Of a stretch of DNA of 33,075 bases, positions 7,756-12,599 are shown piece by piece. A model generated the notes under the pieces. It was not told the origin of the DNA, made no database searches, and saw nothing but the letters and a program-made list of their open reading frames with translations. The position numbers and the translations under genes are program-made. Source of the DNA: Erysipelotrichaceae bacterium (lineage in GTDB: Bacteria > Bacillota_I > Bacilli_A > Erysipelotrichales > Erysipelotrichaceae); assembly GCA_017431405.1 (NCBI GenBank), contig JAFRLB010000008.1, positions 1 through 33,075 of the forward strand, read 5' to 3'. Position 1 is the first letter of the stretch, and the number at the start of each line of letters is the position of its first letter.

Positions 7756-8309
7756 TTGATTTCCTCTTCGCGCTGGTATGTATTTAATATGCTTATCAGT
7801 TCCTCAGCTGTATTTGCGATGTGGCACAGTTCCAGTCCAAGCGTACTGATGAAGCCCTCATCATGAGCCTGATTAATGAACTGCCATAACTTATCGTAAT
7901 AACCGTCAATGTTAAAGAGTATCAAAGGTTTACGGTAATAGCCAAGCTGACTCTGGGCATATACTTCAAACAGTTCATCAAATGTTCCTATTCCACCTGG
8001 AGCTGCGACGAATATGTCCGAAAGATCAAGCATAAGCTGTTTTCTCTCAATAAGATCCTTGGTCAGATACAGTTCATCAAAGCGCTCGTAAAGTATGCCG
8101 TCTTCATTGAAGATGAAAGGACTGATGCTGATGATGTAGCCATTGCCCTTACTGACGCCTCTGGCTGCCGCACCCATTAAGCCGTGAGCACCACCGCCAA
8201 AAACCATGCTGTGACCACTACGGCCCAGTAATTCACCAAGCTTTTCCGTTTCACTGATGTAAACAGGTTTAATCCTGTCACTGCTGGCACCGAAAACACA
8301 TACTTTCAT
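7752..8309 (-). CDS. LOG-family protein (TIGR00730 Rossmann fold)
   Basis: A 185-residue member of the LOG/lysine-decarboxylase-like family. The hallmark motif PGGIGTFDE lies around residues 104-112 and the N-terminal nucleotide-binding segment FGGGAHGLMGAAARG around 37-51. Members such as plant LOG cleave cytokinin riboside monophosphate to free base and ribose 5-phosphate. In bacteria the physiological substrate is often AMP-like nucleotides. An AGGTAGG site precedes the ATG and a TATAAT lies about 20 bases further up. The stop overlaps the start of the AI-2E transporter gene. Family certain; precise activity inferred. Confidence 0.9.
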   Translation of the reverse strand: MKVCVFGASSDRIKPVYISETEKLGELLGRSGHSMVFGGGAHGLMGAAARGVSKGNGYIISISPFIFNEDGILYERFDELYLTKDLIERKQLMLDLSDIFVAAPGGIGTFDELFEVYAQSQLGYYRKPLILFNIDGYYDKLWQFINQAHDEGFISTLGLELCHIANTAEELISILNTYQREEEIK

Positions 8310-8368
8310 ACTTTTACCTACCTACGAAAAATTATACTAAATCAAAAAAAATAAATAAACATTTTGTC

Positions 8369-8397
8369 TTGATTTCCCAATTATATTGTGCTATATT
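8369..8397 (+). promoter_or_regulatory. Promoter of tRNA-Asn
   Basis: TTGATT and TATATT with 17-base spacing end nine bases before the first base of tRNA-Asn. Confidence 0.7.
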
Positions 8398-8406
8398 ATT
8401 TTCGCT

Positions 8407-8482
8407 GCCTAAATAGCTCAGTCGGTAGAGCAATCGGCTGTTAACCGATCGGTCATAGGTTCGAGTCCTATTTTAGGCGCCA
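8407..8482 (+). tRNA. tRNA-Asn (GTT)
   Basis: A 76-base cloverleaf with acceptor GCCTAAA/TTTAGGC, discriminator G, encoded CCA and anticodon loop CTGTTAA (GTT). It is a single-gene unit with its own promoter and terminator. Its GTT anticodon reads Asn codons, and its G34 is a queuosine target of the tgt product encoded downstream. Confidence 0.97.
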
Positions 8483-8492
8483 TTGAAAAAAC

Positions 8493-8520
8493 AGTAAGCA
8501 GGTAACTGCTTACTTTTTTT
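8493..8520 (+). terminator. Intrinsic terminator of tRNA-Asn
   Basis: A perfect nine-pair stem, AGTAAGCAG and CTGCTTACT around a GTAA loop, is followed by seven T. Confidence 0.9.
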
Positions 8521-8565
8521 GTTCCTAAGACAAATAAAAAAACGGAATTGATCCGTTTGTCATAC

Positions 8566-8928
8566 TTATTTCTTGATGTCAGCGTGTAACAGATGAAACA
8601 GTGTTCCCATTAATGCGGTTAAACCGTCAACGACTATCATGGTTACTATGGATATCGTATTAAGTTTAAATGGAGCAGTCAGATAAACTATGATATCACC
8701 AAGAGCACACAGGCCAAACAGAATGACCGGGAAACTCCAGTAATAAGGATAGGTGAAGAAGTTCATAACAAAACCGGCCAGCATCGCAAGTCCAGGTACC
8801 AGCAACAGTACCAGGGAAATGTTTCTCACTGTGTCGGTTCCATTTGTTTCAAGCATAATTCCAAACACTATAAGTATGAATGCCATCATCAGCTGTAAAG
8901 CATTAGTTCCAAAATCCTTTTTCTTCAT
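8566..8928 (-). CDS. Small four-helix membrane protein, unknown
   Basis: A 120-residue protein with four predicted membrane segments (approximately residues 8-25, 32-52, 60-80 and 88-108), a basic N-terminus (MKKKDFG) and a basic end. I do not recognise a family. A longer reading could begin at an ATG at 8967, but neither ATG has a Shine-Dalgarno site. The internal ATG at 8928 has a TATTAT box exactly six bases upstream with TTGCAT 17 bases beyond, so I favour it as a leaderless start. The gene is divergent from the DUF5131 gene, and the two promoters overlap in the 57 bases between their ATGs. Confidence 0.65.
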   Translation of the reverse strand: MKKKDFGTNALQLMMAFILIVFGIMLETNGTDTVRNISLVLLLVPGLAMLAGFVMNFFTYPYYWSFPVILFGLCALGDIIVYLTAPFKLNTISIVTMIVVDGLTALMGTLFHLLHADIKK

Positions 8929-8934
8929 GCAATC

Positions 8935-8963
8935 ATAATAAACTGATTTATTGTTATATGCAA
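8935..8963 (-). promoter_or_regulatory. Leaderless-type promoter of the membrane protein gene
   Basis: On the minus strand TTGCAT (8958-8963) and TATTAT (8935-8940) are spaced by 17 bases, with six bases between the -10 box and the ATG at 8928. It overlaps the divergent promoter at 8951-8979, so the two polymerases should exclude each other. Confidence 0.5.
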
Positions 8964-8979
8964 ACATAAATGATAAAAT
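8951..8979 (+). promoter_or_regulatory. Leaderless-type promoter of the DUF5131 gene
   Basis: TTGTTA (8951-8956) and TAAAAT (8974-8979) are spaced by 17 bases, with six bases between the -10 box and the ATG at 8986. Confidence 0.55.
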
Positions 8980-8985
8980 TTGCTC

Positions 8986-9726
8986 ATGAATTCATTCATA
9001 TATAATCCCTGGCATGGCTGCCATAAATACTCGGAAGGATGCGTAAACTGCTACGTTTACCGTCGTGATGAATCAATCGGCAAAGATGCCAGTATCGTTA
9101 CCAGAACTTCATCCTTTAATGCTCTGAAGTCCAGAAACCGCAAGGGCGAATACAGGCTCCCTTCAGGAACCCATGTTTTCTGCTGCATGACTTCTGACTT
9201 TTTCATTGAGGAGGCAGACGAATGGGGTGAAGAAGTATGGAAAATGATAAGGGAAAGAAGTGATCTTACCTTCACCATCATCACCAAAAGAATAACAAGA
9301 TTCATGGATTGTGTTCCTGATGACTGGAATGATGGCTACGACAACGTATGTATCTGCTGTACGATGGAAAACCAGCGTCAGGCAGATCTCAGGCTTCCAC
9401 TGCTTTTAAGTTTGCCAATTAAGCACAAGGAGATCATATGTGAGCCATTGTTAGGGCCAATCGACTTTAAGGGAAGACTCGATGATTCAATTGAAGAAAT
9501 AACCTGCGGTGGGGAAAGCGGAAACAGAGCCAGATTATGTGACTATGACTGGATATTGGACATCCGCAGACAGTGTATTGAAAGTAATATTTCATTCTAT
9601 TTCAAGCAGACAGGAGCCAATTTCAGGAAAGGAAACACTGTTTATAAAATAGAACGCTACAATCAGATGAAACAGGCCAGAAAAGCCAATATCAATTATG
9701 TCAGACAGTTTAAAACAAAATCGTAG
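8986..9726 (+). CDS. DUF5131 (phage Gp37/Gp68-like) family protein
   Basis: A 246-residue protein of the DUF5131/Gp37-Gp68 family, predicted to be radical-SAM-like. The N-terminal signature NPWHGCHKYSEGCVNCY has Cys12, Cys19 and Cys22 in a CX6CX2C pattern that could hold an iron-sulfur cluster. Later family signatures include TKRITRF near 100-106, CEPLLGPID near 152-160, CGGESGNRAR near 171-180 and the C-terminal FKQTGA. The biochemical role of the family is not established to my knowledge. The ATG at 8986 is preferred over an upstream in-frame TTG because a -10 box lies six bases before it. It lies 34 bases upstream of tgt, so read-through into the queuosine genes is possible and a link to tRNA modification is conceivable but unproven. 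Confidence 0.85.
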   Translation: MNSFIYNPWHGCHKYSEGCVNCYVYRRDESIGKDASIVTRTSSFNALKSRNRKGEYRLPSGTHVFCCMTSDFFIEEADEWGEEVWKMIRERSDLTFTIITKRITRFMDCVPDDWNDGYDNVCICCTMENQRQADLRLPLLLSLPIKHKEIICEPLLGPIDFKGRLDDSIEEITCGGESGNRARLCDYDWILDIRRQCIESNISFYFKQTGANFRKGNTVYKIERYNQMKQARKANINYVRQFKTKS

Positions 9727-9728
9727 TA

Positions 9729-9737
9729 TGTTAGAAT
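9729..9737 (+). promoter_or_regulatory. Possible extended -10 promoter before tgt
   Basis: TGTTAGAAT matches an extended -10 (TGnTAnAAT) in the 34-base gap before tgt, with no good -35. It may allow tgt-queA-queH transcription independent of the DUF5131 gene. Confidence 0.35.
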
Positions 9738-9748
9738 ATTTTGGCTGA

Positions 9749-10905
<1,157 letters not shown>

Positions 10906-10906
<1 letters not shown>

Positions 10907-11931
10907 TGAGAACAGAAGATTTTGATTTTGAACTGCCTCAGCGCCTGATAGCTCAGACTCCGCTTAAGGACCGCAGCTCTTCAAGACTGCTGGTAGTAAA
11001 TAGAAAAGAAAAGACATTTGAAGATCATCATTTCAATGAAATAATTGATTTTCTGCGTCCTGATGACATCATTGTAAGAAACAATACCAGAGTAATACCT
11101 GCCCGTCTGTTTGGCGTAAAGGAAGTAACGGGTGCTCATGTTGAGGTACTGTTACTAAGAGATACGGGTAATGATGTCTGGGAAACCTTGGTCGGTAACG
11201 CAAAGGTCGTCAAGCCTGGAACAGTCATTGATTTTGGTGACGGCATCCTAAAGGCTGAATTCGTTGAATACGGTGAAAACGGCGTCAGATATCTGAAGAT
11301 GAAGTATGACGGAATCTTCATGGAAGTACTGGATAAATTAGGTGAAGTTCCATTACCGCCATACATCAAGGAAAAGCTTTCTGACCCGGAAAGATATCAG
11401 ACAGTCTATTCAAAAATTGAAGGCAGTGCCGCTGCACCAACAGCCGGTCTGCACTTTACAAATGAGCTGATAAAGAAGATTGAAGAAAATGGCTGCAAGT
11501 TTGTGGACATTACCTTACACATTGGTTTGGGTACATTCAGGCCGGTACAGGTTGATGACATAAATGACCACCACATGCACTCAGAACATTATGAGATTTC
11601 CAAGGAAGCAGCCGAAATACTGACAAATGCCAGAAACAATGGTCAGAGGATCATCTGTGTTGGTACGACATCAGTAAGAACACTTGAATCAGTCTGGCAG
11701 AAATATGGCTGTTACAAGGCTGTAACTGATGAAACAGACATCTTCATTTATCCAGGTTATGAATTCAAGGCCGTTGATGCCATGATTACTAATTTCCACT
11801 TGCCAAAGTCAACGCTCATCATGATGATTTCAGCCTTTGGCGGCAAGGATCTGATCTGGCAGGCCTACCATCATGCAATTGAGGAGGAATATCGCTTTTT
11901 CTCATTTGGCGACAGCATGTTTATCATATGA
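10906..11931 (+). CDS. queA: S-adenosylmethionine:tRNA ribosyltransferase-isomerase
   Basis: A 341-residue QueA that transfers and isomerises the ribosyl group of SAM onto preQ1-modified tRNA to form epoxyqueuosine. Family signatures include the N-terminal FDFELPQRLIAQTPLKDR, LPPYIKE (residues 145-151), SAAAPTAGLHFT around 172-183, HIGLGTFRPV near 205-214 and TNFHLPKSTLIMM near 294-306. Length matches the family (about 340-350). The first A of its ATG is shared with the tgt stop, and its stop overlaps the queH start by four bases, giving a tight tgt-queA-queH operon. Confidence 0.97.
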
Positions 11932-12599
11932 AAGAACAGAGTAAGAAATACTATTACAATCTGCAGTTAGAGGAAGTGGAAAGAATAAAGGCCTCTGGTA
12001 AGAGACCTGCTTTACTGATGCATACCTGCTGCGCAGTCTGTGCCTGTTATCCTATCGGCTATCTGGCAGAAGTATTTGATCTTACTCTTTTTTATTACAA
12101 CGATAACATTTATCCGGAAAGCGAATATGAAAAAAGATATCAGGAACTAAGACGCTACGTTGATATCTACAATAACAATTCAGGTAATGACGTAAAACTC
12201 ATCAAGTGCCCTTATAACGGCAAGGAATACATGCAGAAGATGTTGCCGTATAAGGATTCCCCGGAAGGCGGGGAAAGATGCACGGTCTGTTTTGACTTAC
12301 GCATGGATAAGGGCATGCAATACGCTGAAGAAAACCACTATGATTACTTCACTACCGTCATGACCGTTTCAAGACAGAAGGATTCAAAGAAACTGAACCA
12401 GATTGGTGAACAGTTACAGAAAAAATATCCTGGAGTTAAATACTTCTATTCTGACTTCAAGAAAAACGGCGGCCTGGAAAAAGGCGCCGAATTAGTTAAG
12501 CAATACGACATCTACCGTCAGAATTACTGCGGTTGCGTATACAGCTATAATGAAATGTTACAGCGAGCCAAAGCTGACTATAAGCAGGCTTCGGAATAG
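11928..12599 (+). CDS. queH: Epoxyqueuosine reductase QueH
   Basis: A 223-residue DUF208/QueH protein, the non-cobalamin enzyme that reduces epoxyqueuosine to queuosine in tRNA, replacing QueG. Cys-rich signatures are visible: MHTCCAVCACYP near residues 26-37, GGERCTVCFDLRM near 114-126 and NYCGCVYS near 198-205, matching an iron-sulfur and second metal site. It ends the three-gene queuosine operon. Its last 22 bases overlap the end of the convergent nnrE gene, and no hairpin terminator lies between them. Confidence 0.95.
   Translation: MKEQSKKYYYNLQLEEVERIKASGKRPALLMHTCCAVCACYPIGYLAEVFDLTLFYYNDNIYPESEYEKRYQELRRYVDIYNNNSGNDVKLIKCPYNGKEYMQKMLPYKDSPEGGERCTVCFDLRMDKGMQYAEENHYDYFTTVMTVSRQKDSKKLNQIGEQLQKKYPGVKYFYSDFKKNGGLEKGAELVKQYDIYRQNYCGCVYSYNEMLQRAKADYKQASE

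Follow-up and report, generated by a model that had tools for sequence, protein, structure and literature searches.

Results

A doubly leaderless divergent pair is the likely reading of a 57-base gap

In the window (the whole 33,075-nucleotide stretch of Erysipelotrichaceae DNA that was analysed), two divergent genes, one for a small membrane protein and the other for a DUF5131 protein, are separated by only 57 bases (8929-8985, between the ATGs at 8928 on the minus strand and 8986 on the plus strand), and this gap holds almost nothing besides two overlapping promoters (Table 1). Judging from the sequence and its relatives, both genes are likely to be leaderless and to be transcribed from two back-to-back sigma-A promoters that could not be occupied simultaneously. 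The leaderless reading is well supported by comparison, but unproven.

Table 1. Coordinates (in the window) of the promoter elements and of the surrounding genes
Feature	Position	Strand	Basis
-35 box TTGTTA of the DUF5131 promoter	8951..8956	+	Sequence and consensus scan
-10 box TAAAAT of the DUF5131 promoter	8974..8979	+	Six bases from ATG, TG upstream
-35 region TTTGCAT of the small-protein promoter	8958..8964	-	Sequence and consensus scan
-10 box TATTAT of the small-protein promoter	8935..8940	-	N6 to ATG(8928)
Bases common to both core promoters	8951..8963		From coordinates; 13 bases
Small four-helix membrane protein gene, 120 aa, predicted leaderless	8566..8928	-	14 homologous loci, two genera
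DUF5131 gene, radical-SAM-like, 246 aa, predicted leaderless	8986..9726	+	PF07505, E 1.4e-44
tgt, tRNA-guanine transglycosylase, next gene after DUF5131	9761..10906	+	TIGR00430, 531 bits
queA	10906..11931	+	TIGR00113, 441 bits
queH	11928..12599	+	PF02677, E 9.6e-59
tgt promoter-like site, TAGAAT -10, TG upstream	9709..9737	+	At the DUF5131 3' end
tRNA-Asn(GUU), downstream of the small-protein gene	8407..8482	+	Also in 13/13 further loci
Terminator-like hairpin after the small-protein gene	8540..8558	-	Sequence scan

The plus-strand promoter has the layout TTGTTA-N17-TAAAAT-N6-ATG(8986). On the minus strand, the -35 box can be taken either as TTTGCA (8964-8959) with N18, which matches the consensus at 4/6 positions, or as TTGCAT (8963-8958) with N17, which matches at only 3/6. 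The two core promoters, on opposite strands, share bases, and they are interleaved in the relatives too. An earlier note on this DNA had described the gap length, both -10 boxes with their six-base spacers, the overlap at 8951-8963 and the lack of Shine-Dalgarno (SD) sites, and we found all of these as claimed; no SD site was detected upstream of either ATG (filter: fewer than 4 SD-like bases in a row). In a consensus scan of 8300-9900, both promoters were picked up independently, with a score of 9/12 for the plus promoter, which has a TG ahead of its -10 box, and of 9/12 for the minus promoter when taken as TTTGCA-N18. Single matches of this kind are weak evidence, since the scan returned 9 promoter-like sites versus 5.2 expected, and it is their placement that constitutes the signal. 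Dinucleotide shuffling of the gap (100,000 replicates) gave 37 replicates with both -10 boxes at spacer 6 and 2 with both complete promoters; the full promoter on the plus side alone was found in 422. In a comparison with known RNA families, only tRNAs reached the gathering score in the window, indicating that the gap contains no known riboswitch.

The geometry of the gap is conserved in relatives

Nine genomes of the genus of the window were compared. The congeneric records are Erysipelotrichaceae or Firmicutes metagenome-assembled genomes whose stated sources, where given, are ruminants, and the genome of the window (G000) is a draft of 83% completeness. DUF5131 was found in 8 of the nine genomes and the small protein also in 8. 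They are adjacent and divergent in five species (G000, G004, G005, G006 and G003), with gaps of 57, 57, 59, 59 and 58 bases, respectively. The exact gap length, for which the earlier note had suggested a conservation check, is thus not kept, but the length stays within 2 bases in all five pairs. Both -10 boxes passed the same check, a -10-like hexamer being present 6-7 bases before both ATGs in 5/5 pairs. The position of the DUF5131 ATG is likewise conserved in all five, and no SD site was found at either ATG of any of them.

The plus-strand -10 box is TAAAAT in four species and TACTAT (4/6) in G003, and is always six bases from the ATG; its -35 box TTGTTA is retained in G004, G005 and G006 and is replaced by TTGTCC in G003. 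On the minus strand, the -10 box is TATTAT at spacer 6 in G000 and G004, TAATAT (4/6) at spacer 7 in G005 and G006, and GATAAT at spacer 7 in G003, where the -35 box is a perfect TTGACA. The gap of G004 is identical to that of the window, and those of G005 and G006 are identical to it at 46/59 (78%) and 44/59 (75%) positions; in the comparison with G005 and G006, fourfold sites of the two flanking genes are 36-46% identical. For G003, identity with the window falls to 31/58 in the gap (40% at DUF5131 fourfold sites), so that in this species it is the elements and their places that are conserved, not the whole gap. These data amount to essentially three independent lineages (G000/G004, G005/G006 and G003), the identical G004 adding little.

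A 25-base block containing 8951-8963 is identical in G000, G004, G005 and G006. Such identity between species that differ so much at fourfold sites could speak for a regulated switch, with a repressor or activator acting on 8951-8963, perhaps in response to queuosine precursors, and the neighbouring tgt, queA and queH genes and a tRNA of the kind that is a queuosine substrate would be in keeping with this. We consider such a switch very improbable. The block holds the two -35 boxes, which together with the minus-promoter spacer account for its conservation, and tgt has a promoter-like site of its own, so that the queuosine genes need not depend on the promoter pair. Furthermore, no second copy of the 18-base core block was found in the genome with up to 2 mismatches, and profile searches of the neighbouring genes disclosed no regulator gene adjoining the promoter pair.

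The small membrane protein looks leaderless in two genera

The small protein contains four hydrophobic, predicted membrane helices. It had no Pfam or NCBIfam match, and a fold search gave no significant match. A -10-like hexamer is present 6-8 bases before its ATG in 14/14 loci (8 in this genus and 6 in genus g26), the spacer being 6 in 8 loci, 7 in 5 and 8 in 1. The latter is G002, in which a leader of a base or two would therefore remain. The hexamer matches TATAAT at 5/6 positions or better in 12 of the 14 loci and at 4/6 in the remaining two (G005 and G006), and its position is kept even where the neighbouring gene differs. A fifteenth match (L145), broken by internal stops, was left out of these counts. 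The position of the AUG is conserved in the 14 loci as well, and from the sequence the gene looks leaderless in all of them. The small protein is the stable part of the locus.

The earlier note had mentioned 8967 as a possible alternative start. It was rejected: the resulting extension is not common to the relatives, in which in-frame stops occur just upstream of the homologous ATG, and the relatives' proteins align from the methionine at 8928. The start is fixed in four loci (G002 and 3/6 g26 loci) by an in-frame stop two or three codons ahead of the ATG.

DUF5131 starts inside and outside the pair

That both genes lack a 5' UTR, as proposed in the earlier note, agrees with the geometry kept in five pairs, but DUF5131 copies that are unlinked to the small-protein gene, in G001, G002 and G008, are preceded by a strong GGAGG-type SD site. 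SD-bearing homologues, which the note had regarded as evidence against its reading, thus do exist among these three congeneric copies; they belong to another branch of the family, and the linked pairs are devoid of SD sites. In a DUF5131 tree, the paired copies cluster with two outside sequences, apart from the G001, G002 and G008 copies.

A -10 box with at least 5/6 matches ends six bases before the DUF5131 ATG in 11 of the 30 loci for which the upstream sequence was read: 4/8 in this genus (5/8 if the 4/6 box of G003 is counted too), 7/7 in genus g25 and 0/15 in other genera. When all 92 DUF5131 rows were taken together, whatever the taxon, spacer 6 again counted 11 boxes at this threshold and every other spacer at most 3. 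As the g25 copies form two clades separate from the paired clade, the spacer-6 arrangement probably arose more than once. A TTG codon at 8980 was also considered as a start for DUF5131 and discarded, because it directly adjoins the -10 box and is not matched by a start codon in G005 and G006.

These observations bear on the possibility that only the small-protein gene is truly leaderless, DUF5131 being mainly expressed from another start or barely at all, and its -10 box being an AT-rich leftover. The SD sites of the unlinked copies, the poor plus-strand box of G003 and the AT-richness of the gap, in which the full plus promoter arose in the 422 shuffles mentioned above, would fit with this. 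We nevertheless find it unlikely, because four species share an unaltered TAAAAT at spacer 6 despite the divergence of the coding sequences, because the g25 genes have their -10 box at the same distance in all 7 loci examined, and because no upstream ATG fits the start of the DUF5131 protein. The reading that we prefer remains that both genes of the pair are leaderless.

In four g25 loci (L020, L022, L023 and L036), a leaderless-looking DUF5131 gene lies about 40 bases from the apparent start of a divergent gene, which has an SD site, a layout that recalls the arrangement in the window. One could imagine that DUF5131 genes travel as minimal cassettes, the first codon of which lands six bases past a -10 box, and that they are expressed leaderless wherever they are inserted. 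The spacing is indeed found in the tgt-linked clade described here and in two separate g25 clades, in some cases beside a divergent gene start; in the present locus, the cassette would have settled on an existing leaderless promoter, thereby creating a doubly leaderless bidirectional promoter before the queuosine operon. We think that this scenario is improbable.

DUF5131 is a predicted radical-SAM-like protein with a noncanonical motif

The DUF5131 protein scored 152.8 bits with the PF07505 profile, well above the Pfam gathering cut-off (28.9). An alignment of 28 DUF5131 sequences showed that cysteines 12, 19 and 22 are invariant. They form a CX6CX2C motif, while the canonical motif for the radical SAM cluster, CX3CX2C, is absent from the protein. 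The structure model had a pLDDT of 95. Foldseek placed it closest to spore photoproduct lyase (prob 0.99, E 0.012) and to viperin, with no match reaching an E value of 0.001. Because of the three cysteines and of these nearest folds, the protein is best described as a predicted radical-SAM-like protein with a noncanonical CX6CX2C motif and without assigned activity. The earlier note had called it a DUF5131 enzyme; the family membership holds.

The score with the profile for radical SAM mobile pair protein A (TIGR04471) was 31.7 bits, to be compared with an NCBIfam cut-off of 355. No solved structure similar in sequence was found (best E 1.1). The protein is not QueE either, as it matches PF07505 and not QueE, and the QueE profile was above its cut-off in 0/21 genomes. 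A role in queuine salvage, similar to that of QueL, was considered; the accessible part of the paper on QueL (PMC11130926) gives no family accession for it. A search of the available literature with the term DUF5131 retrieved no paper.

The queuosine locus and the probable order of events

The small-protein gene and tgt are immediate divergent neighbours in G002 and G008, with gaps of 94 and 91 bases, respectively, and no DUF5131 in between, and tgt has its own SD site there. The tgt promoter-like site of the window corresponds to a TATAAT box 20 bases before tgt in these two genomes, and a TAGAAT box is present just before tgt in 4/5 paired species. The small-protein gene is separated from tgt by other genes in G007 and in four g26 loci. 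The simplest reading of these layouts is that DUF5131 was inserted into an older divergent gap, between the small-protein promoter and tgt. This reading leans on the second genus and on G007, which have no DUF5131 at this place, and the DUF5131 tree agrees with it; alternatively, DUF5131 may have been lost in the G002/G008 lineage. With an insertion, the small-protein promoter would predate DUF5131 and would originally have faced tgt, and DUF5131 would have come to lie between the two later, its first codon six bases past a -10 box and its -35 box inside the older promoter.

Unlike in the other species, the tgt ATG of G003 has a TAAAAT box and a T-run hairpin directly in front of it (L042, ~1360-1409), reminiscent of a terminator or attenuator separating DUF5131 from tgt.

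The tRNA-Asn(GUU) gene and the small-protein gene are found together in two genera (window 8407-12599; L011-L016, L139-L144), with tgt nearby in most loci. The tRNA gene was present in 13/13 further loci from both genera (two of which are second copies of records, so that eleven genomes are represented). tRNA-Asn is a substrate for queuosine modification, and the small membrane protein may therefore have a link with queuosine, for example a putative role in precursor uptake.

Proposed mechanism and comparison with known systems

We propose that the gap consists of back-to-back sigma-A promoters, the cores of which are interleaved by 13 bases. With six bases between each -10 box and its ATG, transcription would start at the first codon on each side, most likely at its A, or within a base or two of it, and both mRNAs would be translated as leaderless messengers, i.e. 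without a ribosome binding site. In leaderless mRNAs, the 5'-terminal AUG is bound by the 70S ribosome or by the 30S subunit with IF2. RNA polymerase bound to either promoter would cover the -35 box of the other, so that only one promoter would be occupied at a time, and this steric geometry suggests that transcription of the two genes is mutually exclusive. Occlusion would couple the two rates weakly, rapid rebinding resulting in a mild coupling rather than in a stable switch.

Possible precedents are tetR of Tn1721 and ermE of Saccharopolyspora. Searches of the literature on leaderless genes with divergent or overlapping promoters, which returned mostly titles and the beginning of abstracts, did not lead us to recognise a doubly leaderless overlapping pair. 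In the EcoRV restriction-modification system, overlapping divergent core promoters likewise couple the transcription of two genes; however, according to the available text (PMC5333194), the transcript of its C gene is not leaderless and is regulated by the C protein, whereas in the present case both transcripts look leaderless and no regulator was seen. The leaderless C gene mentioned in the same text belongs to AhdI, a convergent system. Overlapping divergent promoters are also described in the consulted portion of a paper on lysG-lysE of Mycobacterium tuberculosis (PMC5648196), where a second lysE promoter yields a leaderless transcript; this system differs from ours in that it is regulated by LysG, has a central inverted repeat, and that only lysE is called leaderless. 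In Mycoplasma gallisepticum, nine transcripts were mapped as leaderless, eight of them with peptides, and the part of the report at hand describes no divergent leaderless pair (PMC4245973); a title in its reference list ties the origin of Mollicutes to Erysipelotrichia. The arrangement described here looks like a tidy, conserved combination of known parts rather than a new mechanism.

Leaderless-type starts elsewhere in the genomes

Leaderless translation is usually treated as rare in low-GC Gram-positive bacteria. To estimate how common such starts are, we sampled 595,101 bases of G000, including the window (522 ORFs), and 375,958 bases of G002 (330 ORFs). SD-less ATGs preceded by a -10 box with at least 5/6 matches showed a peak at spacer 6, with 12 cases in G000 and 12 in G002, while none of the other spacers from 0 to 40 exceeded 6 counts in either sample. 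The spacer-6 candidates represent 2.3-3.6% of the sampled ORFs (about 2-4%), a figure that includes a background of a few per spacer. This peak in both samples suggests that leaderless starts form a minor standing class in these genomes, at about the level published for Firmicutes. As far as can be seen from the part of the article of Zheng et al. (2011) that was accessible (PMC3160421), leaderless genes of Firmicutes have a TANNNT motif about 12 bp before the start codon and make up a mean of 4.2% in the 56/209 Firmicutes genomes showing the signal. The genes described here appear to belong to this class, as the first T of the box is 12 bases before the ATG, SD sites are lacking and the share of genes is similar. 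The Firmicutes clades named in this part of PMC3160421 are Lactobacillales and Mycoplasma, and it contains no word beginning with Erysipelo-; a leaderless use of roughly 2-4% in the present Erysipelotrichaceae would thus add a family to those named there. The pair also offers a clean natural comparison, consisting of a leaderless-type gene present across two genera and a partner with SD-bearing congeneric relatives, in which one could ask what leaderless starts cost or buy.

The sample contained 97 divergent pairs, 4 of which have a -10 box at spacers 5-8 on both sides, with gaps of 57 (the window), 224, 56 and 85 bases. The frequency of these pairs and of leaderless spacing in general, as well as the 91-94 bases found in the layout without DUF5131, would suit an explanation by packing: the genes would have closed up until there was room for minimal promoters only, the arrangement would be a by-product of this, and occlusion would be without biological effect. 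We give this explanation slightly less than an even chance. Against it, conservation of the gap far exceeds that of fourfold sites, which promoter function would however suffice to explain, and the 56-base case is probably only half leaderless. Packing is compatible with the anatomy that we propose for the doubly leaderless pair; all it denies is that the overlap has a role.

The 56-base gap, in G002, separates the gene of a DEAD-box helicase from ispH (L166 8016-8073; also L187, L188 and L190). The helicase gene has TATAAT six bases before its ATG, and ispH has a short leader with a GGTGAT site. It was not retained as a second doubly leaderless pair, because ispH of the relatives aligns from a later ATG preceded by GGTGAT, so that only the helicase gene looks leaderless.

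In the window, the acylphosphatase gene (PF00708, 4214-4492, plus strand) lacks an SD site and is preceded by a TATAAT box at spacer 6. The same layout is seen at the start of a similar protein in G002 (L178, 15886, minus strand), and the acylphosphatase gene therefore looks like another conserved leaderless gene.
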